Of a DNA stretch of 64,000 nt, positions 978 through 42,096 are shown in pieces. This DNA comes from Tribonema minus (Eukaryota; Sar; Xanthophyceae; Tribonematales; Tribonemataceae). Every line of letters begins with the position of its first letter. Position 1 is the first letter of the stretch. A model generated the notes under the pieces. It ran no database searches. It worked only from the letters and a program-made list of their open reading frames with translations, and was not told where the DNA came from. The position numbers and the translations under genes were made by a program. The DNA lies in NCBI GenBank assembly GCA_017506865.1, contig JAFCMP010000536.1, positions 1,116,001 through 1,180,000 on the forward strand. Direction: 5' to 3'.

Positions 978-3900
978 TTAAGCGGTGGCACCCGCCATGG
1001 GCGCCCCCGCGCCCTCCTGCTTGGTGATGGGCAGGAAGAGCTTGAACTCAGGGGGGAGCTCCTCCTCCGAGTACAGCCTGAAGGGGGGTTACGGGGGGGG
1101 GGGGGGGTAAGGGGGGGCATGACTGTTAGCATGTACATGTCAACACAGTGCTGAAAGACGAAGCCGTGGCTCATTGAGAGGCAGCTTTGCGGTGCAGAAA
1201 TGCGCAGGCGACGCGAGTGGCGTAGTACTGGCGAGTATCCAGGTCTTGCAGTGTCAGGGTCACGAGATAATAGAATCATGACGGTGCTCGACGATGCGGC
1301 ATTTGGCGGCGACATGCGCATAGTTGGTTGGCTGCTTCAGAAGATGCAGTTCCAGCTCTCATCTGTCACAATGCAGGCAGCGGCAGCAACGCTTACGGCT
1401 CCATGTGCCAAACTCTAGCCCTAGATGCGTACGGCACGGCGACTTGCGCCCGTCTGAGAGTAGTTGCGGCGGATGCAACAATCAGGCCTGGATCTCGACA
1501 AGCAACTACTCAGTGCACTTGATCCCCTGCGTATGTAGCAACCGGGTACGGCGACCCTGACCCTAGCCCTAGGTCTGCACGGCACAGCAGCGCTCACCTG
1601 TCGGAGAAGTAGATGCGGCGGATGCGGCAGTTGGCGTGGATTTGAACGCGCAGCGTCTCAATGTAGTTGGTCCCGTACGCGCGCCGCGTGAAGTCGCTGA
1701 GGTTAAACTGTATCTGGTTCCAGCCCTCGTCGAGGCGCATGGGCATGGTGCAGATGAACGGCTTCACGCGCGTTGTGCTCTGCAGCGGCGGCGGCGGCGG
1801 CAGCGGCAGCGTAGCGGCGGGCGACATCAGTAAACGGATGTTGTGCACGGTGTCATATTTGGAAATGGTACCGTCACTGATGAATATGCGTTCCTGCGTT
1901 TGATTTTAACTTCAAGTGTGGTTCCAGCCCTCGTCCAGGCGAATGGGCATGGTGCAGATGAGCGGCTTGACACGCGTCGTGCTCTGCGGCGGCGGCGGCG
2001 GCAGCGGCAGTGTAATAGCGGTGGACGGCATCAGTAAACAAATGTTGTGCACAGTGTCGTATTTGGAAATGGTACCGTCACTGATGAATATGCGTTCCTG
2101 CGTTTGATTTTAACATCGAGTGTGGTTCCAGCCCTCGTCGAGGCGCATGGGCATGGTGCAGATGAAGGGCTTGACGCGCGTTGTGCTCTGCGGCGGCGGC
2201 GGCGGCGGCAGCGTAGTGGTGAGCGACATCGGTAAACAAATGTTGAGCACGGTGTTATATTTGGAAATGGCAACGTCACTGATGAATATGCGTCCTTGTG
2301 TCTGATTTCAACTTCAAGTTGGTTCCAGCCCTCGTCGAGGCGCATGGGCATGGTGCAGATGAACGGCTTCACACGCGTCGTGCTCTGCGTCGTGCTCTGC
2401 GATAAATATACGGCCTTGTGATTAATTTCAACTTCAAGTCTTGTACCAGCCCTCGTCGAGGCGCACGTGCATGGTGCAGCCGACGATGTTCAGGCGTGTG
2501 GTGTTCTGCTGCGTCAGCGGAGGTGAAGACCCAGTCAGCAACACGCACGAGGCGTCACCGGTGCGCTCGTTAGGCAGCACTGCGCGCGATATCGCGTCCA
2601 AAAGCAAGTTGCTGCAAACCGCAGTGTGCCGCTATAACATCGATCCCGACAGCGCAACCTTCAAACGGACGCGGTTGCAGCGACCGCCTCCCCGACAGCA
2701 TCAAAGGCAATGTCTGCATATGCACAGAAAGGCGGAACAAGGCGTGGGCACGCGCACTTCGCTCACACCTGGTAGTTGGACGCGCGGAACCGGCGCCGCA
2801 CGTTCTTGTCGTCGAGCACCTGCACCTCGAACGTGAAGTACTTCTTGAGGTTCTTGAGGATCATGACGAGGAACGGCAGCTTGATGCCGAGCGTCTTGGA
2901 TGCCTCCGCGGGGCACGAGATGTACGTCGTGGACACGTTCGTGCCGACGATCTCCAGCACGGAGGACTGTATGTCCTGGTCCGTGATGCGCTTGATGTGG
3001 CCGTTGCGCACCTTCTTGTCCCAGATCTGCAGCGGCTTCGAGCTAGGGGGGGGGGCACGAGGAGGAAGGGGGGGGGGGGGGTTACGTGGGCATCCAAGCA
3101 GGGGGGGGGGGGGGGGGGGGGGGCGTGGGCATCTAAGTAGGCGGGGCGGAAAGGGGGTTATGTAGGCATCTGAGTAGTAGTAAGAGGGTACGTGTTGGCA
3201 TCTTCCTGACCCTGACACCAGCCCTCCTGAGTCTATCCAACATGCGGGCAGCCAGGGGCAGGCTGCTCCACAGGTGAGCAGTTACCATCCGGCTTTGTGG
3301 TATCTGCAGTGAGTGTGTTGATGAATTGCTGTTGCGGATTTGTGGCAACCGCATGCTCAAAGATGAGTGTGCAGTTGAAGTGCTGTTACAGCACACTGCA
3401 CATCGCAACAGCAGCTCGCGGCGCCAGCAGCATTGATGCGCAGATACGACAAGGAATGAGTAGAAGATCACCGCAGTACACGCTAGGTTGAGCTCAAAGT
3501 GAGTTGTGATCGGCAATGTTGCCGTCGTTCTTTGCAGGAGGATCGCCTGATTGGTAGACCATCAGAGCCTCGGCTCATGTTGTGCAGCACACGGCAAGTC
3601 ACATCAGGTACAACGCCTGTTGCGCCCTGAACCTCTGAACTTGCGCTCGTGTTCGAAGGTGACAAGCAGGAGCCACTGCACTCTTGCTGACAACATCACC
3701 ACATCAACAGCGATGGCGTTGCTTGCTCGACCAGTGCACCGTTGGCCGTTTTATCATGACGTGAGCGCTGCAGGCAGGTGGCCAGCAACGCTCAACACCA
3801 GGATGCTGCCTGTATAATATGAGTGTAAAATTCGTACGCACTATTTTCATGTATGTCAACATCAGGGTGCTAGGTATACTATAGTGGGCCTAATACACCA

Positions 3901-17199: not shown

Positions 17200-17849
17200 A
17201 TGGACAACATCACCGCGGCCGATGCTGCCGTGGCAATGGCCACGCTTTTTGTTTTATGGTTGTTAGCCCAGTCCATCAGTCGTCCCGGCATGACCCCCTG
17301 TAGTGTCATTGTGGACCTGAATAATGTGCTTGAAGGTGGACGCAATGCCATGCGCACCGCTGCCATGGCTGAGTGCAGGGGCGGGCGACTGTGGACTTCA
17401 ACTCCCTAATGATCGCATCCAGGACGAGGCGCAGAAGAAGTGCAGGGCTGCTCGTGTCGGGCCACCCTTTTTCCGCTCCGTCGTCGTGTGCGGCGGCCGG
17501 CGTGGCGACCGCGAAGGCATGATTGAAATGTTTCGCCTTGCGTGCGAAAGCCGTCTCCACCTCATCGCCAAGCCAGACATCAGCATACAGCAGCTGGAGG
17601 CGCACCAGACCGAGGTGAGGGAGCGATGAACTCTCACTGATGGCATGCGCAGCACCGTTCTTTGATGGACACGCTTCAGTCGGCTCATTCCCCACGCCAT
17701 CCTCCCTCCCTGCTGCACAGTTCGCCGTGGACGACCGCATCGCCGGCGCGATCGTCAACGCAACGATGGTGGCCCCGGGGTCGGCGTCGGAGCGCGGACT
17801 TGTGGTGGTTGTGAGCGGCAACGGCAAATCCAACGATTCTCCTGCATTT
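17200..17849 (+). pseudogene. NYN-domain exons 1-2, tandem unit 1 (frame-broken)
   Basis: Exon 1 would be 17200-17614 and exon 2 17721-17849. Relative to units 2 and 3, two single-base deletions (after gagtgc near 17377, and in ccctaatgatcg near 17410) shift the frame and put a TAA in the original frame. The frame downstream still encodes the NYN core (CRAARVGPPFFRSVVVCGG). The first motif reads VDLNNVLEGG, with the Asn expected at the family's D-x-x-N site. The second reads VVSGNGKSND, with Asn where NYN proteins have Asp. Confidence 0.8.
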
Positions 17850-18996: not shown

Positions 18997-19648
18997 ATGG
19001 ACAACATCACCGCGGCCGATGCTGCCGTGGCAATGGCCACGCTTTTTGTTTTATGGTTGTTAGCCCAGTCCATCAGTCGTCCCGGCATGACCCCCTGTAG
19101 TGTCATTGTGGACCTGAATGATGTGCTTGAAGGTGGACGCAATGCCATGCGCATCGCTGCCATGGCTGAGTGCAAGGGGCGGGCGACTGTGGACTTCAAC
19201 TCCCTAATGGATCGCATTCAGGACGAGGCGCAGACGAAGTGCAGGGCTGCTCGTGTCGGTCCACCCTTTTTCCGCGCCGTCGTCGTGTGCGGCGGCCTGC
19301 GTGGCGACCGCAAAGCCATGGTTGAAATGTTTCGCCTTGCGTGCGAAAGCCGCCTTCACCTCATCGCCAAGCCAGACATCAGCATACAGCAGCTGGAGGC
19401 GCACCAGAGCGAGGTGAGGGAGCGATGAACTCTCACCGATGGCATGCGTAGCACCGTTCTTTGATGAACACGCTTCAGTCGGCTCATTCCCCACGCCATC
19501 CTCCCTCCCTGCTGCACAGTTCGCCGTGGACGACCGCATCGCCGGCGCGATCGTCAACGCAACGATGGTGGCCCCGGGGTCGGCGTCGGAGCGCGGACTT
19601 GTGGTGGTTGTGAGCGGCAACGGCAAATCCAACGATTCTCCTGCATTT
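18997..19648 (+). CDS. NYN-domain exons 1-2, tandem unit 2 (open frame; partial gene)
   Basis: Exons 18997-19413 (139 codons) and 19520-19648 (43 codons) join in phase 0 with GT-AG borders. The start MDNITAADAAVAMATLFVLW gives an N-terminal hydrophobic anchor of about 16 residues. Then come the NYN fold elements CSVIVDLNDVLEGG, FFRAVVVCGGLRGDR, the LEAHQSE junction, FAVDDRIAG and LVVVVSGNGKSND. NYN domains are PIN-like metal-dependent ribonucleases that use clustered Asp residues. Here the D-x-x-N site reads DLND and the SGDG site reads SGNG, so activity is doubtful. The only downstream continuation in the window is the exon at 25992-26699. Confidence 0.75.
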
Positions 19649-20795
19649 GTGAGTGCTGCAGATGTTCGTATTCTACATGCACCTAGCAGATGATGTTGGG
19701 AGGCGCATGTTTGCTCCGGCTACGCCGATAATTTATGTCTCCTAGTGTCTAGTCCCACTTGAGAAGTTGACTGTATGCGTTTCGGGGCCAGCAGTGAAGG
19801 CCAGCGCTATCTGATGACAGGTGCCTGGCGCCGGTCCGCTTAGTATGCAATTGTTAGTCTTCGATGACATATGTACCAATCATGTAGCTGTCATGGTGTG
19901 TTTGCGCTCAGGGCTCTTTGAACACCAGGCAACATCATCCACATAATCGAATGTTGACGATTCCTCAGGCAAGCGCAGGCAAAAAATGTCAACTCACTGA
20001 CAGGTGCTCGGTTTTTTGTGACAGGCTGCGCCTGCCACAAGCATTGCTTATGCCACACAGGACACTACGGCACTGCCTCGTTTAGTGCACCATGTGCAGC
20101 ATGGCTAAGCATGCAGCGTAGGCGACCCACAGGCCAGCGTTGCGTCCAGTCGGCATCGCTTCACCGCACAGGGCTCAAGGAGGGATTGTCCAGAGCTGTT
20201 GATTTGCAGAAAATGTGCTTTGATGGCACATGAATGCATATACCGTGCCTACACTTGGTGACACGACACGCAAGCCACGTGATGAAGAGCGTACCCAGCA
20301 ATGTGGTCGCCAAATCTAGATGTGCCCCCCCATCAGGATGTCACACTGTCAGTGTCAAAGCAATTGCTTGCAGCGCTTCAATCACGTGCAGGCTCAAACT
20401 GAAGTTTGGCTCTAGGTCAACAACTGCGTTGGGGCGGACCTGCCTTTGGCGGCAGACGTGTGCTCCTCTCAGGTGCAGCTCACCATTTGTTCGCTCGGGA
20501 TTTGCTGCACCGATCCCGCGCGCGGCCAAAGAGCATGATAGTTAGCACACCTCCAACTCTCGGTCAACCGCCCATTATCTCGACCATCATCTAGCCCACC
20601 AGTCCCAGCCTCAACGCCCAGCTTCGCCGAGCTTCCCGTGGAACCGCCGACTCCGGGGGGCCCGCCCCCCGTTCAGATGGGGGTCATCATTGTCAGCATC
20701 AGGGCTCAACAGGTCAATCTTTGCTGACATCCGCGAGCCTGGCCCGGAGAGACAGACACACATCTTATTCCTGCCAGACAATCACACACGACACG

Positions 20796-21447
20796 ATGGA
20801 CAACATCACCGCGGCCGATGCTGCCGTGGCAATGGCCACGCTTTTTGTTTTATGGTTGTTAGCCCAGTCCATCAGTCGTCCCGGCATGACCCCCTGTAGT
20901 GTCATTGTGGACCTGAATGATGTGCTTGAAGGTGGACGCAATGCCATGCGCATCGCTGCCATGGCTGAGTGCAAGGGGCGGGCGACTGTGGACTTCAACT
21001 CCCTAATGGATCGCATTCAGGACGAGGCGCAGACGAAGTGCAGGGCTGCTCGTGTCGGTCCACCCTTTTTCCGCGCCGTCGTCGTGTGCGGCGGCCTGCG
21101 TGGCGACCGCAAAGCCATGGTTGAAATGTTTCGCCTTGCGTGCGAAGGCCGCCTTCACCTCATCGCCAAGCCAGACATCAGCATACAGCAGCTGGAGGCG
21201 CACCAGAGCGAGGTGAGGGAGCGATGAACTCTCACCGATGGCATGCGTAGCACCGTTCTTTGATGAACACGCTTCAGTCGGCTCATTCCCCACGCCATCC
21301 TCCCTCCCTGCTGCACAGTTCGCCGTGGACGACCGCATCGCCGGCGCGATCGTCAACGCAACGATGGTGGCCCCGGGGTCGGCGTCGGAGCGCGGACTTG
21401 TGGTGGTTGTGAGCGGCAACGGCAAATCCAACGATTCTCCTGCATTT
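20796..21447 (+). CDS. NYN-domain exons 1-2, tandem unit 3 (open frame; partial gene)
   Basis: Exons 20796-21212 and 21319-21447 are nearly identical to unit 2. One visible coding change gives EGRLH for ESRLH. The frame is intact and phase 0 at both borders, with the same non-canonical DLND and SGNG motifs. It could splice to unit 4 exon 2 or to the terminal exon at 25992. Confidence 0.75.
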
Positions 21448-22594
21448 GTGAGTGCTGCAGATGTTCGTATTCTACATGCACCTAGCAGATGATGTTGGGA
21501 GGCGCATGTTTGCTCCGGCTACGCCGATAATTTATGTCTCCTAGTGTCTAGTCCCACTTGAGAAGTTGACTGTATGCGTTTCGGGGCCAGCAGTGAAGGC
21601 CAGCGCTATCTGATGACAGGTGCCTGGCGCCGGTCCGCTTAGTATGCAATTGTTAGTCTTCGATGACATATGTACCAATCATGTAGCTGTCATGGTGTGT
21701 TTGCGCTCAGGGCTCTTTGAACACCAGGCAACATCATCCACATAATCGAATGTTGACGATTCCTCAGGCAAGCGCAGGCAAAAAATGTCAACTCACTGAC
21801 AGGTGCTCGGTTTTTTGTGACAGGCTGCGCCTGCCACAAGCATTGCTTATGCCACACAGGACACTACGGCACTGCCTCGTTTAGTGCACCATGTGCAGCA
21901 TGGCTAAGCATGCAGCGTAGGCGACCCACAGGCCAGCGTTGCGTCCAGTCGGCATCGCTTCACCGCACAGGGCTCAAGGAGGGATTGTCCAGAGCTGTTG
22001 ATTTGCAGAAAATGTGCTTTGATGGCACATGAATGCATATACCGTGCCTACACTTGGTGACACGACACGCAAGCCACGTGATGAAGAGCGTACCCAGCAA
22101 TGTGGTCGCCAAATCTAGATGTGCCCCCCCATCAGGATGTCACACTGTCAGTGTCAAAGCAATTGCTTGCAGCGCTTCAATCACGTGCAGGCTCAAACTG
22201 AAGTTTGGCTCTAGGTCAACAACTGCGTTGGGGCGGACCTGCCTTTGGCGGCAGACGTGTGCTCCTCTCAGGTGCAGCTCACCATTTGTTCGCTCGGGAT
22301 TTGCTGCACCGATCCCGCGCGCGGCCAAAGAGCATGATAGTTAGCACACCTCCAACTCTCGGTCAACCGCCCATTATCTCGACCATCATCTAGCCCACCA
22401 GTCCCAGCCTCAACGCCCAGCTTCGCCGAGCTTCCCGTGGAACCGCCGACTCCGGGGGGCCCGCCCCCCGTTCAGATGGGGGTCATCATTGTCAGCATCA
22501 GGGCTCAACAGGTCAATCTTTGCTGACATCCGCGAGCCTGGCCCGGAGAGACAGACACACATCTTATTCCTGCCAGACAATCACACACGACACG

Positions 22595-23244
22595 ATGGAC
22601 AACATCACCGCGGCCGATGCTGCCGTGGCAATGGCCACGCTTTTTGTTTTATGGTTGTTAGCCCAGTCCATCAGTCGTCCCGGCATGACCCCCTGTAGTG
22701 TCATTGTGGACCTGAATAATGTGCTTGAAGGTGGACGCAATGCCATGCGCACCGCTGCCATGGCTGAGTGCAGGGGCGGGCGACTGTGGACTTCAACTCC
22801 CTAATGATCGCATCCAGGACGAGGCGCAGAAGAAGTGCAGGGCTGCTCGTGTCGGGCCACCCTTTTTCCGCTCCGTCGTCGTGTGCGGCGGCCGGCGTGG
22901 CGACCGCGAAGGCATGATTGAAATGTTTCGCCTTGCGTGCGAAAGCCGTCTCCACCTCATCGCCAAGCCAGACATCAGCATACAGCAGCTGGAGGCGCAC
23001 CAGACCGAGGTGAGGGAGCGATGAACTCTCACTGATGGCATGCGCAGCACCGTTCTTTGATGGACACGCTTCAGTCGGCTCATTCCCCACGTCATCCTTC
23101 CTCCCTGCTGCTCAGTTCGCCGTGGACGACCGCATCGCCGGCGCGATCGTGAACGCAACGATGGTGGCCCCAGGGTCGGCTTCGGAGCGCGGACTTGTGG
23201 TGATTGTGAGCGGCGACGGCAAATCCAACGATTCTCCTGCATTT
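22595..23244 (+). pseudogene. NYN-domain exons 1-2, tandem unit 4 (exon 1 frame-broken, exon 2 canonical)
   Basis: Exon 1 (22595-23009) shares both single-base deletions with unit 1 and is out of frame. Exon 2 (23116-23244) is open and differs from the other units: it reads LVVIVSGDGKSND, with the Asp expected in an active NYN site. Its donor (ttt|gtgagt) is in phase with the terminal exon at 25992. Exon 1 of unit 3 spliced to exon 2 of unit 4 would give an open reading frame; this is inference. Confidence 0.7.
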
Positions 23245-23777
23245 GTGAGTGCTGCAAAGACTCGTTGTGTACATGCACCTAGCAGATCATGTTGGGAGAC
23301 ACATGTTTGCTCCGGCCAGATAATTCATTAATGTCACCAGCGTTTAGTCCCCACTTGAGAAGTTGACTGTGTGGGGTCACGTGACATGAAGGCCAGGTGT
23401 GAGTGCACTCGTGAGAGTGTTGGGTTAGTATGCTGACACAATGTAAGCGATATCCATTTGGTGTGATTGTGAAAGCCTTGAAGTGAAACAGCGAGGGTAC
23501 TACATAGTATGAGTGTGTGTATATGTCATACAGTGTGTTTCTTTTAGTGCGTTCGTAATACTTGAATTGCGGGAGAGGACCCACTGCGAGTGGGTCGAGT
23601 CCTGGGTACGTGAACGGACGTGAACGTGCGAGAAGTTCTCTGATTTTTACACACACACGTGCACCTCATGTGATTTACGCTTAAGTGATGTACGAAGCAG
23701 CATCTTCATTCATTCTTCATTCGCTCACGTAGTTGATTCACCGTAAACTCGTGATTTGCAGCGTCTGCACCGCTCAT

Positions 23778-27948: not shown

Positions 27949-29549
27949 AAGCTAACAGCACCCACATCACGGCTCCGAGTCGGACACAGCCCCGTACTGC
28001 GCTGCAGTTGCCACAGCAGCCTGAGCCACTGAGGTGTCCTTTATGCACACTGGCATTTTGGCAGCTTGGTCAGAAAGAGGACAGCAAACAGCGAGGCAAA
28101 CTGTCAGCTGCGAGCCGCATGGCACCGGTAGTGGCCCACTTCAACGGTGGTAGCTGCACGAGGTCGATGCTGAACCCTGAGGCGAGCACATCACACTGTC
28201 AGCAAAATCTGGCGGCAGCATACGCCAAGGGCATCCGGCAGCAGGTTGATCACGACCCATCCGGTGACCGTGCCCCTTCAGGCAGCAGTACCTGCAACAC
28301 TGGGGCACACCATGCCAAGCGTGTGCAGGAGATGAGCACCATGTATGGTTGCACGGCAGAAGACTTCCTACGGGCGGTAAGGAAGCTGAGTGCATGCACA
28401 GGTGCCTGCGGTCTGGTCCATATGTCAGCCAGCGCGGGGCAGAGGCAATGCGCGCTGACCTCGCCATGCCACACGTGTCGACGGAATGGAAGCGCCCCCA
28501 CGCGCGCACGCCCGGCAGTACCCCCGGGCCAGTCCGAGGGCGGGGGTGCGGGTAGCGACGGCGCGGCCGCGGCGGCGGGGGCTGCCGCAGCGACACCTCC
28601 AAAGCCACCGGCGGTGCCGGCTAGTGGCGCTGCCAACTCAAAGTCCAGCAAGAAACGCCCGGCGGCCACGGCAACCGGCGCGCAACGCCGGCGCCGAACG
28701 GCAGCTGCTGCGGCACCGCCTGGCAGCGCCGGCAGCCGCACTCAGTGTAACAGCCTAAGGCTGCAGGACAGCAGCCCCCCCCACGGGACGGCCGTGGGAT
28801 GGGCGGACATGGACTTGGACCCGCCGGACGATGCCGCGTCACCGCCCCCCCCGACCACCACCACCAGTGGCAGGCCCTCAAAGCCCCAGTCACGAGCATC
28901 CCTGGCTTGGGACCTCTCGACGCCCTCGGTCGTCCACGCACTTGACCAGACCAATGAGGCGGATCTACTGCTGCTACGGTTCACCACGACTGCCAACCCC
29001 TTCCGCACTCAGCTGCAGTGCACCCAGTGGGCACGGCTAGTGGAGCACGCCACACGACTACTGGCGGACGCCACAGACAGTGCACGTGAGGCGGCACGGG
29101 TGCGCCTCCACCATGGTGCCGGGGCGTTTGCTCATCAGGTTTCTCAGACTCTAGTGCAGCGCGGCTACAGGCTGCTGCACCTGCTAGCAGCAATGGCCTT
29201 TGGTAGGCAACCGGAGGGAACCGGTATGCCGCCTGCGGCCCGGCTGGCAGCGTTGCTGTCTGGCGACTTTGCGGAGCTACTGAGAAAGACGCTGTCAGCA
29301 GCAGCGGCGCTGCGGGCCCCCAAACCGAACAACGCAGCTACGGCGTCGGCACAAACGAACTTCGATGCCGACTGGACGGAGGCTGACTCCAGGCAGCAAA
29401 CAGCATGCGCTGCCCTCTCAGGCAAGCGACGGGGGGTAGGCCTGGCTGCCGCACGACTAGAGGCGCGTGAAGCATGCGCCCCAGCAGACGAGGTCACGGC
29501 ACAGGTGCTGGCAGCAAAGCACCCTGAAACTGGCACCCGGCCGGGGTAG
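27949..29549 (+). CDS. retrotransposon N-terminal open frame (zinc finger region)
   Basis: The frame is open from the element's first base to TAG at 29547-29549, about 530 codons. There is no ATG before 28119, yet coding-like sequence including CPLCTLAF lies upstream of it, so initiation is either non-AUG, supplied by a host transcript, or at 28119 with loss of the first cysteine pair. CPLC followed by HFNGGSC resembles a CCHC/CCHH finger. The middle is Ala/Pro/Gly-rich with a basic patch (KKRPAAT, RRRRTAAA), and the C-terminal ~200 residues are helical. The frame ends within 12 bases of the RT frame. The RT frame is already open upstream of its first ATG, so one indel in the G-run at 29543-29546 could have split a single polyprotein. 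Confidence 0.75.
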
Positions 29550-29560
29550 TCGATACGCCA

Positions 29561-32500
29561 ATGGAGCAAGTGCGCGGCCTGGTACGCGACGCCCGGCGGC
29601 ACTGCTTGCACGGCGCAGGGGTGGCAACGACCGCCGGGCCCGCTGGCAGCGGCAGTCCCGTCTTCGAATCGGGTCAGGCGCATGATCGCAGCGATAGGCC
29701 TGAGGATGCTGCCAGCGCAGCCGGACGGCGCCTCGAGGTGGAGGCGACAGACATACTGTCGACCTTGTCCGCAGCAGGGGCGGGGAAGGCAGGAGGGCTG
29801 GACGGCCTACGCTATGAACACCTCTTGATGGCCGCTGGGCCTGGTGCACCAGTGAAAGCAGCCACCCGCCCCGTGGGCAGTGCCTCGCCAGGACTAGCTG
29901 GTGATTCAGAATCGGATGTGATGGAACCGGCATTCGCCCATCACCTGGCCAAGGTGTTCACGACGCTGCTTGTTGAGCCCGAACTGCTGCCGGAGCAATC
30001 GCAACGGCTTCTCCGCGCCGCGGCCCTCTCAGGCATAGGACAGAAGCGGCGTCCGATCGCCTGCTCCAGTGTCTGGCGCAGACTCCTCGGGTCCACAGCG
30101 GCACGGGGTGTCAAGGGCAAAATATCGGGGCTGCTGGCCTCCATGTCGCAGTTTGGCGTAGGATACCGGTCTGGCGTCGAGCATGTGGCAGCGCGCGCGC
30201 GCGTGTGGCACGAGCTGTATGGCACCACAATCCAGCTGGACTGTGAGAACGCATTTAACAGTGTGGATCGCGCCGCCATTGTGCGGGGACTTATGCTCTT
30301 CTGTCCGGAGCTGCTCCCGCACTTTGAGTCCGTATACTGTGGTGACACTGCCCCAGAGATGCGAGTGGAGGTGAACGGTGAAGCTCGCATTATCTGCTCC
30401 CACCTAGGGTGCCAGCAAGGGGACCCTCTAGGGCCGCTGTACTTTGCAGTGGCAGCGGCATTCCTACTCTTCTACCCTGATGGAGTGAGTGCGACGCCCG
30501 GCAGTATGCCGGCCTACGGCCACAGCACAGCGGAACCGCCAGCCCCGCACTGCGCTTTCCTGGATGACCTCAACGTGCTGCAAGCTGCCTACTTCGACGA
30601 TGCAGCGGCCGCTGGGGTGGCAGAGGTGATCCGTCGGCTTGCGGCAGGGGGCCTACGCGTTCGACCAGACAAGTCGCTGGCCATTGCCATGCGCGGCACA
30701 GTGTTTGATGAAGCGGCCAGAGCACGCCTGCGCGCCCTTGACATACCGTTTGTGGACGCCACCATGCCAGAATCCAGTCAGGGCTTTACGTCGGTCGGGG
30801 TACCGGTAGGGCACCCAGCCTATGTGCATGCTGCCATGAGCAAGCATCTTGTTGACGCAGGGACATGGCGATTGTCGTGGCAGCTAGCTGGGATGGCGCG
30901 GCATCACCTACAGGCAGCACAGTTCATTCTGCGCAGGTCACTGACGAAGCGCATGGGCTTCTTAGCTCGGGTCGTTGACACGGCTTTGAGTGAGACATGG
31001 CTGCACGCATTTGACGGGTTCTGTGCATGGACGCTTGAACGCATGCTGCACCTGCACGGCTGCGCTACCGCGGCAGTCATGAAGTCACACCTGCTGGCCG
31101 CCTGCACTGCTGGTGACAATGAGGTAGCCAGCAGTGGCAGCGTGCTGGTATTGCCGCGCTTGGGCCCGCCAGAACTCACGGACATCGCAGTGCCACTGCG
31201 GGCGTCACGGTTGCCGGAGCGACGAGGCGGTCTGGGCATGCCGCTTTTGGGGCTACTGGCACCAGCCGCATACACGGCCCAGGCATGCACAACACTGCGG
31301 CCTGCAATAATTCATGCCACTGTGGCAGCAGGGGCCCTGAGGCTCGGCACTGACGAACACGGCGCAGTCACCTGGTTCGCGCAGCACTCATGCGCAATAC
31401 GCGAGGACCAGGGACTGCCGCCAATCATCGAGGCCGTGCGACGCTCTACGCGAGCGCTGACAGCTGATGGCGGCGAAAAATCACGCACAGCTGTGGCCGA
31501 GCAGCTCCCAGCATCGTTGCTACGGTGGGCAGCGGATACAACGGCCGCAGCGTCGACGCTCCCCACTGCGGTGCAAGCGATCTACGCCGCAACTGCCGTC
31601 ACGGAGACGGGGACCACTGAGCCAGCCCCACACACCCACGGCATTGTGCCTGGCGCCGAGGCGGCCGCTGCGGCGGCGACCGTACCTGGCCCTCAAGCCG
31701 CTGCCGCGGCTGCCTCTTCCACGCCCGCTAAAACACAAACTAGCGCGGAAGAAAGCAGCTGCAGCGGCGGGCAGGAGGACGACGACGACGACTGGGAGGC
31801 CTATGCTGACGAGATCTGCAGAAAGGTAGTGCCCCGCCGCCGGCGCGGTCACTTCACGCACGGACTACAAGCCGGCCTTTCAAATGTTCTTCGACGTCAA
31901 TACGAGGACTGCCTGGTGGAGGACCTAGAGGCTGCCTCGGCTGGTGCCGTGGGCAAGCCGACGCAGGCTACACTTATTGGTGACTTGCGTGACACCAGCC
32001 GCCGCCGCCAACAGGCTAGCGCGCGGGTCCTGGCGCAGCTGCGCAGCCAGCGTGCGTCCGGGGCAATGGCGTGGATGAGCGTGCCACCCGCTGCCAATGA
32101 CCGCCCGGGTGCGGCGCCCATGTCCAGTATGGCAGCAGCCACGATGATTATGGTTGCGATCTTTATAGACGGGTGGGGCATACAGGGCGAGGTGTGCCCA
32201 TGGCGGTGCAGTGACGTGAGCCCCACCTCCACGCATGCGATCAGCTGCCCCAGCCAGCACATACGGGGGCACAACGCGACACACACTGCCCAAAAGCGGT
32301 GCCTACAGCGCATCTTGAGACAGCACCATGTCTCTATTGTCCGCAATGAGGACGCTAGCGTCTTCAAGGTACCGGGGTATCGGGCGGACACAGTCATTGA
32401 CCCAGGGTGTCTGCACTTTAGCAGTGCATACCGTAACAAGGGAATAGTGCTAGACACAAGTGTGCGCGCACCCACAGCGAGCTCGTACCTGACAGGCAAA

Positions 32501-32869
32501 ACAAATGCCTCGAACACGGACGGCTATGCTGCTGGGGTGGGGGAGGACGCGAAGGTCAAGCACCACACCGGCACCTTGACGTCATCTTGGGCTTTTGTGC
32601 CATTCGTGCAGGAGTCGTACGGACGGCTGGGCAAGCAGACAAGCCTTTTTGTTAAGGAGTTGGCAATGCACTCAGCACTGTGCTCAGGGGGGGGGAAGGC
32701 AGATGTGTTACGCAAGGCCGGGTTAGCTAAGCGTCAGATCCACATTGAGCTGAGCATATCGCTGGCGCGGGAGTTGGCGGAGCGCGTCATGGCATACACA
32801 CGTGGAGCGCGAATGCTGGGCTGTGTTGCGGCGCCGGTATCCAAACTCCTAGGGCACAGCGCAGACTAG
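29561..32869 (+). CDS. retrotransposon reverse transcriptase and restriction-like endonuclease
   Basis: A 1102-codon open frame. RT motifs in order: AGGLDGLRYEHLL (about residue 73), GQKRRPIACSSVWRRLLG (about 160), motif A IQLDCENAFNSVDRAA (about 225, catalytic Asp), motif B CQQGDPLGPLYF (about 285), motif C FLDDLN (about 332, replacing the usual Y-A-D-D) and GLRVRPDKSLAI. After an Ala-rich, acidic linker comes CPWRC followed by HAISC (about 878), a zinc-knuckle-like pattern. Next are GYRADTVIDPG, GIVLDTSVRAP and EDAKVKHH (about 937-995), arranged like an R2-type PD-(D/E)XK nuclease although the leading Pro is Ala. The product would nick target DNA and prime cDNA synthesis from it. No internal stop is seen, so the element may be active if the upstream frame problem is not real. 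Confidence 0.9.
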   Translation: MEQVRGLVRDARRHCLHGAGVATTAGPAGSGSPVFESGQAHDRSDRPEDAASAAGRRLEVEATDILSTLSAAGAGKAGGLDGLRYEHLLMAAGPGAPVKAATRPVGSASPGLAGDSESDVMEPAFAHHLAKVFTTLLVEPELLPEQSQRLLRAAALSGIGQKRRPIACSSVWRRLLGSTAARGVKGKISGLLASMSQFGVGYRSGVEHVAARARVWHELYGTTIQLDCENAFNSVDRAAIVRGLMLFCPELLPHFESVYCGDTAPEMRVEVNGEARIICSHLGCQQGDPLGPLYFAVAAAFLLFYPDGVSATPGSMPAYGHSTAEPPAPHCAFLDDLNVLQAAYFDDAAAAGVAEVIRRLAAGGLRVRPDKSLAIAMRGTVFDEAARARLRALDIPFVDATMPESSQGFTSVGVPVGHPAYVHAAMSKHLVDAGTWRLSWQLAGMARHHLQAAQFILRRSLTKRMGFLARVVDTALSETWLHAFDGFCAWTLERMLHLHGCATAAVMKSHLLAACTAGDNEVASSGSVLVLPRLGPPELTDIAVPLRASRLPERRGGLGMPLLGLLAPAAYTAQACTTLRPAIIHATVAAGALRLGTDEHGAVTWFAQHSCAIREDQGLPPIIEAVRRSTRALTADGGEKSRTAVAEQLPASLLRWAADTTAAASTLPTAVQAIYAATAVTETGTTEPAPHTHGIVPGAEAAAAAATVPGPQAAAAAASSTPAKTQTSAEESSCSGGQEDDDDDWEAYADEICRKVVPRRRRGHFTHGLQAGLSNVLRRQYEDCLVEDLEAASAGAVGKPTQATLIGDLRDTSRRRQQASARVLAQLRSQRASGAMAWMSVPPAANDRPGAAPMSSMAAATMIMVAIFIDGWGIQGEVCPWRCSDVSPTSTHAISCPSQHIRGHNATHTAQKRCLQRILRQHHVSIVRNEDASVFKVPGYRADTVIDPGCLHFSSAYRNKGIVLDTSVRAPTASSYLTGKTNASNTDGYAAGVGEDAKVKHHTGTLTSSWAFVPFVQESYGRLGKQTSLFVKELAMHSALCSGGGKADVLRKAGLAKRQIHIELSISLARELAERVMAYTRGARMLGCVAAPVSKLLGHSAD

Positions 32870-34894: not shown

Positions 34895-37800
34895 CCGGCT
34901 TGCGAGCGCTGCTGCCGCTGCCGCCAGCGTCAGCGCCCCGATTATGCCACCTTTTTTTATAACACGAACGTTACGCAGCGCGCCCGCAGTCTCCTTGGAG
35001 ATGACGACGTGGCGGCGGTAGCGGCCGCCGCCAGCGGCGCCGCCGTCGCCGCCCGCGCCGCGGCCGCCGCGACGCGGCGGCAGCTTGCCTGCGGCGGCGG
35101 CGGCGGCAGCAGCAGGGACGGAGTTGATTTGTGGGGGATGCGTTGCAATCGAGGTCCATGGAACGGGCGCGTTGGGAATGATTGGCGTGCCGCAGGCACA
35201 GGACGGTCGTAGTTCCTGACTGGAGTTTGTTCGTTGGAACTCAAATTGGGCAAGAGGCCGACTTTGCGAGAAAGTGTCCTGTCCACCTGGGGGAAGTGCC
35301 GCGAGCATGAGAAGCAGAGACTGGGACGCTTTCTTGGGGCGCCTTCGCTGTGGAGTTGCAGTGTCATCACAAGCACACTGCCGCTGCAGCAACACTAAAG
35401 TAAGATGGAGATGGACCGACGAAGCGCCAGTCTACAAACATACACATGCAGCTCACCGTTGACGAGCGGGTCGCCGCGTAAGGCGACGTTGGCATTGCTC
35501 AGGAAGCCCTCGTGGTAGGGCATGCCGGACCCCACGGCGTCCAGCCAGCGGCGGTACTGCACAACGAGCGCGTCGCTGGTGGCGATGGGTAGGTAGGCTT
35601 GCGACAGTGTCTCGCCCGTCCGCGCAAAGTGGTCCTGCGTGTACGACGATAAGTAGAGTTGAAGTGAAGGTCTGATGCAAAGTTCAGCTCGGTGGGACTG
35701 GGTAAGGTAGCCTTGTTTCAGATAAGGTTTAGCATGCTGAAACCGGGTAAGGTGGCACTAAAGCAGCGTCGCGCCCGTCCGCGCAAAGAGGTCCTACGCA
35801 CGCGCTGTGACTCAGTAAAGTTGAAGTTGCACAAGGAGATCAGATGAGTCTTCATCGAGGTGCGGCGATGGGTAGATTGGCTTGGGGCAGCATGGCGCAC
35901 GTACGTGCATATGGTGGTCCTGGACTTTGAAGCATAAAAAATGGGCTTTCACATGTTTTCTTCAACATGAAGGTTGAATACTTCAAAGTATGAACTTCAC
36001 AGTTGTAGCAAAGGGCACTTAGGCTTGGGACTGCGTCTCCCCGCTCCAAGCCAGGTGGTCATGGACGTGAAAACTGGTAGATGATTAAAGATGGCTGATG
36101 TAAACATGAACAACTTCCTTTCACAAGATGTAGTTCCAGCGTTCTGCCTGCTTAAGCCTGAAGTTTGCAGAAGCAGCTGTTGGGCGCTGATGTGCTGTGC
36201 GGATATTGTGGAAAGGGTTAGGGTCGAGGATAACCGTGGGATGTCCTGAAGGGGTTAGAATTAAGGTTTGGAGTAACCCAAAGTGGTGAAACGCATCAGA
36301 TGCGCGCTGGTGGACATTGGGTGACTGTGGAACGTTCCTGAGGTACGTTCCCATAATGTGACCGCCCTGTGCTGGCGCTCCTCGACTCCGTTGAGCACAT
36401 GAGCCCCAAATGCTGCTTGGGCACCTTGCAGCTGTTGCTCAACAGCGGCGCAGCGACCGTCGACGTGACGGCAGGATTGAGCATCAACAGCAGCGGCGCG
36501 CCGTGCAAACACCCATCGCACCTCCCCCTTCATGCAAATACATACTCCCTGATTGATTCTGTTGCAGTGCGCCTCACCTCCTGCGAGCATATTAGACGGA
36601 GGTCCTGCTCGAGCACCTCGCAGCGTTTGAACTGCCACAGCCACAGCGGCTTCATTTGCATATACCAAACTCAACCAAATGCATGGGTACCCCCATGAGC
36701 TTGACCCGTTGCAGCGCTCCTCACCTCCTGCGAGCAGATGAGCCCCAGGTCTTGCTCGAGCACCAATTGCAGCCTTTGACGTTGCACAGCCACAGCGGCT
36801 TGGCGGCAAGGCGGAGCGTTCAATAGCGGCGAAATGCGGGCTCACAAACTACCAGTACAAACCTGCTCCATCATATACACACATGTCCTAGACACTCCTC
36901 ACCTCCTGTGAGCAGATGAGCCCCAGGTCCTGCTCGAGCACCTTGCAGCTGTTGAGGTGCCGCAGCCACAGCGGCTTGATGCCGAAGATGAGCTTGACGA
37001 GCGGCGGCATGCGGCGCGCGTACGTCATGAACAGGATGCGCGAGCGGCCCTGGCCGACCGGCACGCAGTGCAGCGCGGCTCCGAAGACGGGCCCGGGCTG
37101 CCCCTCCTTCTTCTGCGTGACAGTTGTTGAAGTTGCGAGGCAGGTCGCGTCGCAAACATCAGCTCCCCCCATCAAACAGTGGTCAGGATGAACAAGTTCA
37201 AGTGCAGTAGTGCACGCAGTGCAGCGCCGCTCCAAACACAGGGCCGGGCGGCTCTCCTTCATCTGCGTGGCAGTTTGATGGTCAGCAGTTGAAGAAAGTA
37301 TCGCGCTGCAGCGCAGCAGACAGCATAAATGCTTAGGAACGGGCGCAGTTTAACCGAACAGAAGCGGAAGTGCCTGCGATGACTTGTGCAAAGATCCCAC
37401 GTGCCGTGCGGAGCGTACCGCCACGCAGTGCAGCGCCGCTCCGAAGACGAGCCCGGGCTGCCCCTCCTTCTTCTGCGCGTGATGGTTTGTTGTGGTTGAG
37501 AGGCAGGGTCGCATCAGAGCACGTCAGCTTTCCCATCAAACAGTTCGTGGAATCGCACACAAGTTTCAAGTGCTGTAGTGCATGCAGTGCAGCGCGGCAC
37601 CGAAGACGGGCTCGGGCTGCCCCTCCTTCGTTGCGCGTGATCTTTGTTTTAACTTAAAAGTTCAGGGTTAGCGCCAAAAAAAAAGCACATGCGCACCTCA
37701 TCAAGGGGTGCTCGAGACCACAAGCTGAGATGCAGAGCTGAAGCGGAAGTGCCTGCGTTAGCTGGCGCAAAGAGTGCACAGGGCAGGCAGGTGTACCGCA

Positions 37801-40800
37801 CAAAGGGTACTGGCACCCTAACCTAACCCTGAGTGCAGCCGGGAAGCTCAGCTGTGCCATGATTGCGCCTCCCGACGGCTGCAGACGGCAGCGGTGAATG
37901 CTAGCAGGGCTCAGGGACCCTCGCCGTGCCAGTCAGACGACCTAGACAGGTGCAGTAGCATAGTGCTTCAAGGTACTGAGCCTTGGTTAGCCCTAAGCCT
38001 GGTCCTTACCCTAACTCTAACCCTTACTGCATTTGCATGCCAGACAGCTGCTTTCTTGTTGAGCTCTTGAAAACATGCAGGCCCATGAATGCATGCCTGT
38101 CACACTGTGCACGGTTCATTGTGTCTACATACAACCGGCATATTTGTAGCGATCGCCCTCAAGGCGTTGTGTGGCCACTGGGTTAGGGTTAGGTCAGGCT
38201 AGGGTTGAGGTTAGGCGCACCAAAGTGCACGCTGCTGCATTATTGCTAGCAGAAACCCAGGCATACCCAAGTCCTTGACAGACAAGCCAATGACCACTTC
38301 ACATGGCACTGTCGTTGATGAACCACCACCGGAGACAACCTGGCATTGCTGTCCGCAGCCGGATGAAGCGTCGCACGTCAGCAAGCGAGAACCTCAACTT
38401 GCGCTACCAATACATACATACGCCTCAGGGTGCAGTAGGCATGTTGTACGCTATCCCTGGCGTTTCCGTCCGCAGCCGTCTGCAGCCAAACCTCAACTTG
38501 CACTTTTTACCTATACAAACATGCACCTCCTCAGGTTGCAGTTGACATATTTTTAAGCATAATATGTTGTATGCGTACCCCTGGCGTTTCCGTGCGCAGC
38601 CGAATGACGCACGGCGCGTCGAACTGAATGGCGGTGGTGCCCTTGGAGAACAGGTTGGTGATCTTCGCCTTGAAGCCCGCCGCCCCGAAGCTGTCCTTGT
38701 CAATCTGCGCATGAGGGCGGTACGGAGTGTCAATCCGTGTTGGCGTATGCGTGCGACGCAGGGGCAAAGTCGCGACATGCTTGAACACAAGTCATCAATC
38801 TGCATGTTTGACATGTATAATGGCCGTCTAGTAAATTTTGGGACACTCCGACCCACGCAGTGCGCACGTCAAAAGGTGAGGGGCATGGCGTAGCACACAT
38901 CCGTTGCCACTGCCGCTATCACACCAATAAAGTGGGCATGACAGTTACATTTTGCGAAATGCTCCCCTAACGCGGCACTCTCGTCAAGGTTGAGGGGCTT
39001 AGCATTGTCCCTGCACTGCCCTCACACCGATCACGTAGCAATGTCAGTTACATTTTGTGAAACGCTCTCCTACCGTGGCACTCACGTCAAAATTGAGGGG
39101 CTTAGCGTTGTCCCTATTGCCACCACCCTCCGTGTTGTGGTGCGAGATGGGGATGTGCGCCGGGTCAATCAAGTTCTCCACCAAGTAGGAGTGGTCGTAG
39201 GGGAGGTCCACAGCAACCTGCGTGAATCACAACGCATTCACCGTGAGTTCAAGTTTGAACTCATGTGTGAACTCATGGGACGAGATGGGGATGTGCGCCT
39301 AGTCAATGAGAGTTCTCCACCAAATAAGAGTGCTCGTAGGGGAGGTCCGCGGCAACCTGCGCCAATCACAGCGCATTTCGATGTGAATACAAGTGTGAAT
39401 TCATGCGTGGATTCATGGGACGAGATGGGGATGTGCGCCTAGTCAATGAGAGTTCTCCACCAAGTAGGAGTGGTCGTAGGGGAGGTCCACTGCCACGCGC
39501 GGCAATCACGACACTTTTCACCTTCATGTGATGTGTCAATTCGTAGCATAACGTCCACATCAAGTCCACTACGGCCTCCACAAATGCATGCAAAGAGGGG
39601 GTGAGGGCCTGCTCAATGTGCCCCCCGCCCCCCCCCCCCCCCCACCCACACACGCGCATCGCCACCACCACCACCTCCCCGCGTACTGTGCGCTCCCCAG
39701 ACACATGCGCCCACATTTAACACACCACAATCGCGCTTGAAAGCGCCGCCTGTGCATACGCGCGAGGCATGGTAAGACCGCTCCCTCCATGAAGTAGAGG
39801 TACAACATCGCGATGTCGGTTTCGAAGTGATCGGCGGCGCGCATCGAGACGCTGGCAAGGCGTGCACGGAGACACACGCAGACTCTGGTCGCGGGCTGCG
39901 GTGGTTGCGAGCTGGACATCACCATTTGGGCAAAGAAGTACATGAAGCTGAGCCCGTGCCGCCTCACCTGGCGTACGAACGCCAGGACAAGCGAGAATCA
40001 ACAGTGAAGCGCACATACAGCTGAGCAATGCCCCCGCACCTGGTACGTGAACGCCAAATCATCAACCGCCTCCACACCGTCCTGCGTCGTGGGCACGGGC
40101 TTGATCAAACGCGCCCCCTCCCCCCACGGGTCGTCCCCCATCCACACCCACACGACCCCCTCGCGCTCCGCGACAGGGTACACGCGGAGCGCTGCTGCAC
40201 GTGGAATCGCGGCGCCCTCGGCGAGCTGCGGTATGCGCTCGCACGCGCCGGTGGCGCCGTTGAACTCCCAGCCGTGGTACGTGCAGTAGATGCGGCCGTT
40301 CTCGACGAGGCCCTCGCTGAGCCGCGCGGCCCTGCGTGAGTGAGCGAATGAATTCATGAATTAATCAATTGATGAATGAACAGATGAAGTGAGCACGCGC
40401 CGGTGGCGCCGCTGAACTCCCAGCCGTGGTACGTGCAGTAGAGGCGGCCGTTCTCGACGAGGCCCTCGCTGAGGCGCGCGACCCTGCATGAGTGAATGAA
40501 TGGGTGACTGAATTAATGGATGCATTCACGCAGGCAGCACAGATCGCTACTCCAAGTAAATGAATGGGTGAATGAGTAAATGGATGAATGTATGAATCCA
40601 CGCCGGCAGCACAGATCGTTCCTCCCAGTCATTGCGTGCAGTGAGTGCGACCATTCTTGACAATGCCTTTGGCTGAGTCCGCGCATTCATGAATGAATTC
40701 AAGGAGGCAGTGCGGAGAGATGTTGCGTTGCCGCCGTGGTGCGTGCGGTAGACGCAGCCCTTCTCCGTGATGCCTTCGCTGAGCCGCGCTGCCGTGCTAC

Positions 40801-42096
40801 AATGAGATGGCCTACTGAGCACGTGAGAGCTTCCCATACTGAACACCCATGCCTCGAACGCCAAAAAGCTTGCACACCGAAGTCTTTTGGCTCCGGTGGA
40901 TATGATGGCACTGTTTGACTCGTGGCCAATTGCTGCTGCAGCGGCGACCACGGTCATTGGTGGAAGGCACTTGCAGCTAACCACAGCTTGTCGCCTAGAG
41001 CTCTACGATCTTTGGATTCGTTTCCATAATGAGTGCACGAAGGCAGCTCTCAGCAGCAGTGCTCAACTGCAGAGATCGCTCGCCGCCGTGGCGCATGCAG
41101 CACTTGCATCTGTTTCCGATTATGTGCTCGCTAAGTTGCGCTGCCTCTGCATAATGCGTGCACAGCGTTCAGTACGATAGGGCATAAATTCATTGAGGCG
41201 CGCTGCACCGCCCTACACGAACGAATTCACGTGCGTGCGCGCATGCACGCGCAGTTGACCGCGCATGCTACAGCGCTCAGCAAAATCGCACTGTGTGCCA
41301 GCAGTGTCTCTGTGCCTGCTGGGCCGCACTGCTGTGCGCAAACTCAAGCACTTGCGTGTGTATGCTTGTGTCTGTGTGAGGTATATGTGCCACGTCGAAC
41401 ATCACGCTGCCTCAATATATACAAACGGATTTGTTACTGTGTTTTGAGACAGTCCTTGGTGATCACGCGACTGGTGACATGATGAGCGAGTGGGGCACCT
41501 CACTTGACACTCGTCGGTTCATTTGTTGCTGCCAAACAAATGCCAGCAGCCCCAGCAGCAGCTTATCCTATGCAAGCAAAATGGCAGTGCGCCTTCCACA
41601 GTGTCCGACCACAGTGTCCAACGAAATGCAGCTACTGGCCCGATGAGAACAAACCTGCGCTCATCACATTGTCGGTGGAGGCGACTGGAGTGCGGGCAGA
41701 TGTTAGATCTTGCCTGTGGGTACAGAGATCTTGCACGCAGTGGAGGGCCCCCTCGGTGTCCCGAAAAAGCACCAGAGGTTCGTCGAAGATGCTCATGGGA
41801 TACGGCCGCGCCCTTTTGCCCCCCTCAAAGTCCTTGCTGTAGCCCAGGGGGTACCAGTGCAGCCTCCAGTTGTAGTCGAACTTTGGCCCAGCTGATTGCT
41901 CTGCCGGCAGCACCGCGCTCTCAGTGTCGCTGGCCAACGTCGAAAGGCGCTCCGAACGGTCTGTGTGGGTCGGGCTTGCCCGGAGCTGCCGTCCCACGGC
42001 AGGCACCACTGGCCGGAAAGCTGTGGCGCAGTGGAAGCTACTGCAGAGCAGCAGCAGCGGCACTGCCATGGCCAGAGCACTCATGTTGATAATCAT
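34793..42096 (-). CDS. plastid Rieske mono-oxygenase of the pheophorbide a oxygenase/TIC55 family, seven exons
   Basis: Exons 42096-41714, 40331-40040, 39217-39086, 38704-38579, 37112-36903, 35634-35457 and 35088-34793 total 1617 nt, exactly 538 codons plus stop, all in phase. Residues 1-28 are a signal peptide ending CATAFRP (ASAF-like), then a Ser/Thr/Arg-rich transit region. The Rieske [2Fe-2S] ligands are CTH and CTYHGW across the exon 1/2 junction. The mononuclear-iron motif in exon 3 is DLPYDHSYLVENLIDPAHIP then SHH (N-x2-D-x2-H-x4-H). Exon 5 has GRSRILF and CKVLEQDLGLICSQE, as in PAO/TIC55. The C-terminus has RYRRHVV and two Ala-rich hydrophobic segments. The C-terminal CxxC of plant PAO/TIC55 appears absent (ISKE). 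Substrate is unknown; a chlorophyll-breakdown or other pigment oxygenation role is plausible. Intron 1 appears to use a GC donor (CACAG|GCAAG). The exon 7 acceptor is the least certain border. Confidence 0.92.
35755..35900 (-). repeat. acceptor-side copy of Rieske exon 6 in intron 5
   Basis: The string gtcgcgcccgtccgcgcaaa at 35765-35790 repeats the exon 6 start (real copy 35634-35600), and cgatgggtag followed by gcttg near 35867-35885 repeats a further part of exon 6. Confidence 0.8.
36390..36800 (-). repeat. donor-side copies of Rieske exon 5 in intron 5
   Basis: The exon 5 end (CKVLEQDLGLICSQE and donor GTGAGG) recurs near 36715-36800, 36565-36640 and 36390-36450. The first keeps LEQDLGLICSQEV and a gtgagg donor; the others are more decayed. 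Confidence 0.9.
37195..37650 (-). repeat. acceptor-side copies of Rieske exon 5 in intron 4
   Basis: The exon 5 start (ctgcgtgacag acceptor region then ccgtcttcggagccgcgctg) recurs at about 37210-37275, 37425-37490 and 37585-37645, spacing about 160-220 bp. Each reads roughly KKEGQPGPVFGAALHC before diverging, with substitutions (for example SRPALCLERRCT in another frame). Confidence 0.9.
38255..38500 (-). repeat. donor-side copies of Rieske exon 4 in intron 4
   Basis: The exon 4 end (cggaaacgccagg and donor) recurs near 38455-38490, 38335-38375 and, partially, 38258-38275. Each is followed in transcript direction by related intron sequence. Copies are decayed. Confidence 0.8.
38960..39020 (-). 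repeat. donor-side copy of Rieske exon 3 in intron 3
   Basis: The exon 3 end (GACAATGCTAAGCCCCTCAA in the copy) is repeated about 100 bp downstream, with the donor GTGAGT changed to GAGAGT. The flanking intron stretch attttgtgaaacgctctcc is duplicated with it. Confidence 0.88.
39277..39505 (-). repeat. two dead copies of Rieske exon 3 in intron 2
   Basis: Segments 39277-39363 and 39418-39505 repeat the first ~85 nt of exon 3 (real copy 39217-39086), period 141 bp. Both contain the same in-frame TAG where the real exon has CCG (Pro of the DPAH motif), and both lack the second half of the exon. They therefore derive from one another after the stop arose. Confidence 0.94.
40385..40810 (-). repeat. 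acceptor-side copies of Rieske exon 2 in intron 1
   Basis: The exon 2 start (minus-strand reading ARLSEGLVENGRIYCTYHGW) recurs at about 40389-40490, almost intact as RVARLSEGLVENGRLYCTYH, and at about 40732-40800 in decayed form (ARLSEGITEKGCVYRTHHG). Short gaatgaatg-type repeats lie between copies. The intact copy is the one nearest the rest of exon 2. Confidence 0.92.

Follow-up and report, generated by a model that had tools for sequence, protein, structure and literature searches.

Introns of the Rieske gene in the window (the whole stretch of 64,000 nucleotides that was analysed) carry diverged copies of the edges of their neighbouring exons, and this observation was confirmed. These copies, here called echoes, are probably the remnants of recurrent short tandem duplications straddling the exon-intron junction. 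The introns seem to grow through small junction-crossing duplications that leave the protein unaffected. The copies, their side, their direct orientation, their local origin and their roughly neutral decay were established, as was their occurrence in four gene families; the mutation itself would be a tandem duplication arising via break repair or replication slippage.

The Rieske gene lies on the minus strand. Its exons 1 to 6 were joined into 440 codons without a stop, and exon 7 begins at 35088 on the same strand; by our own count the total is then about 538 codons, in agreement with the 538-codon stop-free join of the original prediction. The introns have GT-AG splice sites, and intron 1 is GC-AG. 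The product matched the Rieske and PaO domains, and its closest homologue showed 56% identity across 85% of the protein. Judging from the open joined frame and the protein homology, the exon-adjacent site is presumably the one spliced. The exons are as follows.

41714..42096, minus strand: Rieske exon 1, GC donor; joined reading frame
40040..40331, minus strand: Rieske exon 2; joined reading frame, Rieske domain
39086..39217, minus strand: Rieske exon 3; joined reading frame
38579..38704, minus strand: Rieske exon 4; joined reading frame
36903..37112, minus strand: Rieske exon 5, PaO domain; joined reading frame, domain match
35457..35634, minus strand: Rieske exon 6; joined reading frame

When the Rieske region was compared with itself by BLASTN, direct copies were observed for the acceptor edges of exons 2, 3, 5 and 6 and for the donor edges of exons 3, 4 and 5, reproducing the list of edges proposed earlier. 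Under a strict edge-touching test, 7 of the 12 Rieske edges had a copy in their own intron. The original prediction went further in some respects. It placed two or more copies in each of introns 1 to 5; copies were indeed found, but intron 3 has a single strict echo (intron 6 has none). It held that the introns consist largely of such copies, which is too strong, as detectable repeats occupied about one-third of the length of introns 1-5 (approximately 1,935 of 5,319 bp by our own sum of BLASTN intervals). Its statement that exactly one copy of each edge is intact is correct for the whole edge only and is otherwise overstated, because the splice dinucleotide (GT/GC or AG) is still present in 48 of the 64 echoes found in all genes tested. 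The echoes in the Rieske introns are listed with their identities.

40393..40483, minus strand: echo of exon 2 acceptor edge, AG kept, 95.6% over 91 nt
40722..40793, minus strand: echo of exon 2 acceptor edge, AG lost, 79%
41079..41145, minus strand: echo of exon 2 acceptor edge, most diverged, AG lost, 67%
39276..39356, minus strand: echo of exon 3 acceptor edge, AG kept, 87.5%
39416..39496, minus strand: echo of exon 3 acceptor edge, AG lost, 91%
38983..39025, minus strand: echo of exon 3 donor edge, GT lost, 85%
38455..38478, minus strand: echo of exon 4 donor edge, GT lost, 96% over 24 nt
37212..37260, minus strand: echo of exon 5 acceptor edge, AG kept, 86%
37417..37472, minus strand: echo of exon 5 acceptor edge, AG kept, 95%
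37580..37629, minus strand: echo of exon 5 acceptor edge, AG lost, 94%
36725..36839, minus strand: echo of exon 5 donor edge, GT kept, 82% over 112 nt
36578..36655, minus strand: echo of exon 5 donor edge, GT kept, 83%
36386..36506, minus strand: echo of exon 5 donor edge, GT lost, 78%
35745..35793, minus strand: echo of exon 6 acceptor edge, AG kept, 83%
35864..35919, minus strand: echo of exon 6 acceptor edge, AG kept, 78%
36005..36060, minus strand: echo of exon 6 acceptor edge, AG lost, 76%

CFAP20, located in the same window, showed the same pattern, and so did genes for kinesins and TCP1/CCT at other places in the genome (158 Mb). The pattern thus extends beyond the Rieske gene and recurs in unrelated gene families on many contigs. 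The features of CFAP20 are given below.

1598..1779, minus strand: CFAP20 exon 3, the second gene with the pattern
1905..1983, minus strand: echo of CFAP20 exon 3 acceptor edge, AG kept, 87%
2105..2187, minus strand: echo of CFAP20 exon 3 acceptor edge, AG kept, 89%
2302..2384, minus strand: echo of CFAP20 exon 3 acceptor edge, AG kept, 90%
2427..2503, minus strand: echo of CFAP20 exon 3 acceptor edge, AG kept, 81%
1452..1531, minus strand: echo of CFAP20 exon 3 donor edge, GC in the splice position, 73%

For the statistics, 46 introns were used: 6 from the Rieske gene, which had been selected for showing the pattern, 3 from CFAP20 and 37 from kinesin genes (20 of the 26 kinesin loci retrieved, the remaining 6 having no usable exon pair). 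Four kinesin introns were removed as doubtful, and one of these together with a fifth was re-drawn as a single intron in locus L017; in the second kinesin batch, 3 of 16 were removed for low score, and further exon pairs were skipped or unresolved. The first 20 kinesin loci were taken from an E-value list before any echo search and form the least selected batch, with a strict copy on 7 of 48 edges. The next 6 loci were chosen for many separated exons, which biases them to long introns, and by our own split of the counts they showed a strict copy on 15 of 26 edges. Four of about 10 CCT places were retrieved, one of them (C51) chosen after duplicate matches were already visible.

In this sample, 31 of the 92 exon edges had an edge-touching copy in their own intron, under a rule that was fixed after the first echo alignments had been inspected and whose controls were run afterwards. 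No edge matched when the intron was reversed (0/92) or reverse-complemented (0/92). Matches numbered 5 of 1404 with introns of other families, 21 of 2564 with other kinesin genes and 1 of 172 with other introns within the same gene. Copies of exon heads lay upstream and copies of exon tails downstream, on the correct side in 11 of 24 cases and on the wrong side, in the intron at the other end of the same exon, in 0 of 24. Of the 29 donor echoes, 24 were located in the 5' half of the intron, and of the 35 acceptor echoes, 32 were located in the 3' half; these are the near ends with respect to the copied edges. After low-complexity filtering, the local repeat pairs in the window were 74 direct and 2 inverted.

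With 29 donor and 35 acceptor echoes, both kinds of junction had been copied repeatedly, as claimed. The copies were spaced at 84 to 627 bp in all genes tested (median 149); most were close to the proposed 100-220 bp (55 of 64 at 84-240 bp), but the full range is wider. Strict exon copies accounted for 4,219 of the 39,015 bp of all introns examined. Introns with echoes had a median length of 963 bp (n = 24) and those without echoes 592 bp (n = 22; Spearman 0.57). The intron flanks of 33 of the 64 echoes matched the real flanks above the 99% level of foreign flanks, the other 31 being below it; therefore, the junction was copied and not the exon alone. No exon-exon pair was found among 116 pairs at at least 70% identity, with 13.7 kb labelled as exon.

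Echoes differed from their exons by about 16% (pooled), with 204, 176 and 270 mismatches at codon positions 1, 2 and 3, respectively. This spread fits a freely changing echo compared with a conserved exon and rules out strong purifying selection on the echoes; their decay is roughly neutral. An age ladder along the arrays was not significant (Spearman -0.16, p 0.19). Divergence increased away from the splice edge, from 0.10 to about 0.25, and no inference is drawn from this rise because the alignment rule can generate it.

Tandem duplication across the junction predicts direct and local copies on the expected side, with the intron flank copied along with the exon edge, and both were observed, the latter in the 33 matching flanks. 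Such a duplication would create two copies of the exon edge. If splicing occurred at the copy adjoining the exon body (the last acceptor or the first donor), the old mRNA would be retained, and the duplication would therefore be protein-neutral. The second edge copy would become intron sequence and then decay, while duplications entirely within exons would alter the protein and be lost. Repeated events would produce arrays growing inward from both edges and a longer intron. The original prediction knew of no described process that repeatedly amplifies both junctions; the repeated copying stands, but a wholly unknown process is unnecessary because direct, local, side-consistent and roughly neutrally decaying copies fit tandem duplication.

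Simple duplication, however, does not account for the scarcity of purely intronic repeats, of which 13 raw events were found in 8 of the 46 introns (a reversed control gave 4 window hits). Echo flanks were detectable in 17 of 64 cases, from which, by our own arithmetic, about 43 intronic events are expected, or about 21 with each edge counted once. A simulation tuned to 31 edges gave about 33 introns with purely intronic events and, under the same scan as the real data, approximately 133-155 events in about 39 introns, although it was run without large deletions and its echoes retained 88-91% identity, above the 85.5% of the real echoes. The excess of junction-crossing copies over uniform duplication is thus about 2-fold in the most cautious estimate and about 10-fold by simulation. 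The data depart from the simplest model, in which breakpoints are uniform over introns and junctions and decay is neutral. These results favour a real excess beyond simple duplication and point to something more.

One possible addition, which we hold tentatively, is that the edge arrays renew themselves, the conserved exon edge being a permanent master copy from which exchange seeds fresh copies into the intron. After a first junction duplication, unequal exchange or gene conversion with the echoes would generate new exon-like copies, and flanks and purely intronic repeats would meanwhile decay beyond detection. Flank identity barely tracks exon identity (r = 0.20), and in several echoes the exon part is 95-100% identical and the flanks match poorly; both points count against the plain tandem-duplication reading, as does the lack of a significant age ladder, but rapid indel turnover in introns could equally decouple the flanks. 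Clustering is weak, and alignment ends may generate it. If true, introns would extend inward from both splice sites in a self-sustaining and protein-neutral manner, distinct from transposon insertion and from intron gain.

Rather unlikely is a targeting of the duplications, with breaks or nicks occurring preferentially at splice junctions, for example through R-loops or the exon-intron step in base composition or chromatin. Junction-crossing copies exceed purely intronic ones and both donors and acceptors are affected, as such targeting would have it, but the size of the excess varies with the decay model, and no motif or break hotspot was demonstrated. Telomeric inserts mark break repair in mammals; here, a link of interstitial telomere repeats to echoes was sought and not found, with 3 of 15 lying within 40 nt against a chance expectation of 2.25. 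The words ACTTCAACT and GTTGAAGTT were enriched in introns, and no tie of these words to breakpoints was found. Inspection of breakpoint microhomology by eye gave no firm result.

It is improbable that the echoes are functional, acting as decoys or alternative splice sites with a role in splicing regulation or in the production of isoforms. The 48 copies do have a usable-looking dinucleotide, but by our own estimate this retention is about that expected from decay at such divergence, an in-frame extension free of stops would result from only 6 of the 48, and the codon-position spread indicates little protein constraint. Still less credible are mobile introner-like elements that brought the splice sites and made these introns. 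A dispersed repeat of about 225 bp occurs in Rieske intron 1 (40804-41030), a fragment of it was found in locus L028, and similar sequence was seen by eye after an echo there. However, this repeat had only 4 matches in 325 kb of retrieved sequence whereas echoes are common, and edges seldom match introns of other genes. The exon 5 donor array, the one array searched, was unique in the genome at E 0.001; with this array unique and matches to introns of other families at 5 of 1404, no dispersed family of similar introns was seen. From the unique array and the scarcity of the 225 bp repeat, an introner or transposon origin was rejected. An assembly artefact deserves practically no credence: the divergence of echoes from exons rules out assembly duplication, the echoes recur in unrelated genes on many contigs, and no point in its favour was found.

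Duplication across junctions, the preferred reading, bears on a process that is hard to observe. Non-transposon lengthening of introns usually escapes notice because new intron sequence quickly loses the trace of its source, whereas each addition here is tagged by neighbouring exon sequence. The genome also offers dozens of natural duplications of splice sites, each of which has to be settled in favour of one site. They amount to a natural experiment on how a spliceosome picks one of several near-identical sites spaced by about 150 bp.

Exon duplication, including mutually exclusive exons, likewise places local tandem copies of coding sequence inside introns. The echoes, however, copy one edge only, decay about neutrally and mostly give stops or a frameshift on read-through; they do not combine both splice sites with an open frame, and complete duplicate exons were rejected. 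Minisatellites and other short tandem duplications are local and direct, as are the echoes with their spacing of about 150 bp, but one repeat of an echo array is a live exon edge kept intact by selection. No description of edge echoes was found in the open-access literature. In the potato RdRp case, a tandem duplication over an intron-exon boundary made a new intron (PMC4974935), and tandem duplication can supply extra splice sites (PMC4974935, PMC3443670). The echoes resemble that case in that a tandem duplicate crosses the boundary and adds splice sites (PMC4974935); they differ in that an existing intron lengthens, each edge copy keeps its own side, and the arrays recur at many edges in many genes. 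Introner elements are dispersed families, those of Amoebophrya having direct and inverted repeats (PMC7789003). Like them, the echoes are intron-associated repeats in a protist; unlike them, they are local and derived from the neighbouring exon.

The product of the Rieske gene (window 35-42 kb, minus strand) carries Rieske and PaO (pheophorbide a oxygenase) domains. Among its named homologues, the nearest belongs to Chrysoparadoxa, a stramenopile alga (53%; best match overall, 56%), and several of its named relatives in the homologue comparison are TIC55. Exons 1-6 were joined into 440 stop-free codons using GT-AG sites and one GC-AG site; the chain can be extended by a seventh exon from 35088. 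Self-comparison recovered the copies first described, all in direct orientation: acceptor-edge copies for exons 2, 3, 5, and 6 and donor-edge copies for exons 3, 4, and 5. Sixteen of these echoes (decayed copies of an exon edge, splice site included, inside the neighbouring intron) were strict, i.e., reached the splice edge, and the identity of their exon parts ranged from 96% down to 67%. After low-complexity filtering, the entire window held 74 direct versus 2 inverted local repeat pairs. A second genomic match to the exon 5 donor array was sought and not found; therefore, the source of that array is local. Further features of the window were as follows.

13133-15024: ankyrin-repeat coding sequence, lying in two open frames that overlap
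16287-23373: large tandem array, period about 1.8 kb, adjacent copies about 98% identical
29528-32866: long open frame (1113 codons) that weakly matches the reverse-transcriptase family PF00078, barely above the cut-off
40804-41030, minus strand: dispersed repeat of about 225 bp in Rieske intron 1, found at at least 39 other places with 84-90% identity (40 of 2219 first-look candidate places scored)

For each of 92 edges (46 introns), up to 120 nt of terminal exon sequence was compared with the exon's own intron; a best local match scoring at least 22 and reaching the splice edge was counted as a pass. Copies in the own intron exceeded foreign ones: 31/92 edges passed, against 5/1404 in introns of other families. 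Reversed and reverse-complemented introns each gave 0/92, introns of other kinesin genes 21/2564, and other introns of the same gene 1/172. By gene, the passes were 22/74 for kinesins, 7/12 for Rieske, and 2/6 for CFAP20; among kinesins, the first, least selected batch gave 7/48 and the second, picked for many separated exons, 15/26. In an earlier test with 60-nt edges, 18/66 exceeded the 99% level set by foreign introns; no edge passed the threshold of this test in 17 of 24 first-batch kinesin introns. With such edges, exons between two modelled introns showed echoes on the expected side in 11/24 cases and on the wrong side in 0/24.

Four echoes lie upstream of the third exon of CFAP20, a gene located at the window start. 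The kinesin motor family, a sample not picked for the echo pattern, gave 132 exon matches across the 158.2-Mb genome (554 contigs), and 26 loci were fetched. Copies of exon parts outside exons were observed in 12 of them (8/20 in the first fetch, 4/6 in the second), with acceptor-edge copies upstream and donor-edge copies downstream. The one exception involved a stretch inside a long core of locus L033; this core probably spans an intron. The best named matches of one kinesin from this genome came from Chrysoparadoxa (73%), Choristocarpus, a brown alga (74%), and Heterosigma (68%). The source organism is probably a photosynthetic stramenopile. For TCP1/CCT genes (four loci of about ten places), copies were found at 7/42 core edges, with none scored wrong-sided and three rows unclassable; local repeats were entirely absent from one of these four loci. 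The Pfam TCP1 search also listed partial, echo-like duplicates next to complete exon matches (contigs C51:21979-22639, C5:352998-353558, and C135:208164-208583); therefore, an HMM search alone can flag echo-bearing edges. Many introns lacked echoes.

The 64 strict echoes had exon parts of 24-119 nt; their distance to the next copy was 84-627 bp, with a median of 149 and 55/64 values within 84-240. The 5' half of the intron held 24/29 donor echoes and the 3' half 32/35 acceptor echoes, and the median intron length was 963 bp with echoes versus 592 bp without. Mean identity was 85.5% for exon parts, 66.6% for the adjoining 40 nt of intron, and 53% for random intron; no significant age ladder was found among the echoes. 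Mismatches at codon positions 1, 2, and 3 numbered 204, 176, and 270, close to the pattern expected when an unconstrained copy is compared with a conserved exon. Of 35 acceptor echoes, 25 retained AG, and of 29 donor echoes, 23 retained GT or GC. If used, only 6 of the 48 usable-looking sites would lengthen the exon with an in-frame, stop-free extension.

Interstitial TTAGGG telomere-type repeats occurred at many places in the genome (3071 + 3991 exact 24-mers, array ends included), and contig C2 starts with a long TTAGGG array. Clusters of 11-nt telomere-type stretches numbered 18 in introns (39 kb), 0 in exons (21 kb), and 59 in a 300-kb sample; a scrambled hexamer gave one cluster in introns. 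A passage of PMC7215372 describes such interstitial inserts in mammals as marks of double-strand-break repair. Closeness of the inserts to echoes was checked and not found. The words ACTTCAACT and GTTGAAGTT were strongly over-represented in introns of the fetched loci. RuBisCO large subunit fragments with stops (C334:714136-714324 and C112:516888-517037) are probably plastid DNA in the nucleus.

A tandem duplication spanning an exon-intron junction would yield an extra copy of the edge. Such duplications could pass selection, because splicing at the exon-adjacent copy would restore the old mRNA. Duplications internal to exons should fail selection, which fits the absence of exon-exon repeat pairs in 13.7 kb of labelled exon. 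Echo flanks exceeded the foreign 99% level in 33/64 cases. Junction-spanning duplication, the probable origin of the echoes, accounts for their side, orientation, and locality and for the fact that flank and edge were copied together.

After echo masking, 13 purely intronic repeats, some being pieces of one event or adjoining echoes, were detected in 8/46 introns (22.1 kb usable); the reversed control gave four window hits. Under uniform duplication, about 21 (each edge once) or 43 (each echo counted) would be expected, with detection guided by echo flanks (17/64 detectable). A simulation using the same scan, with duplications planted at the rate yielding 31 edges, no large deletions, and echoes somewhat less diverged than real ones, produced about 133-155 events, spread over about 39 introns. 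Uniform duplication over-predicted intronic repeats in all three estimates. The exon and flank identities of echoes were nearly uncorrelated (r 0.20), and exon divergence was overdispersed (chi2/df 2.9). It is possible, if rather unlikely, that the conserved exon keeps re-seeding its own echoes by exchange; mosaic-looking copies in the kinesin locus L028 and weakly clustered mismatches (p 0.02) point towards exchange, short of proof. That splice junctions are favoured duplication targets is an improbable source of the excess of junction-crossing over purely intronic copies.

No account of edge echoes as a described phenomenon was found in the open-access literature. Echo formation is a real, widespread, and unusual route of intron lengthening. 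It draws on a well-known class of mutation and shows a preference for splice junctions that uniform duplication does not explain. The novelty lies in the repeated use of both junction types, together with the growth of existing introns, in many genes of one genome.
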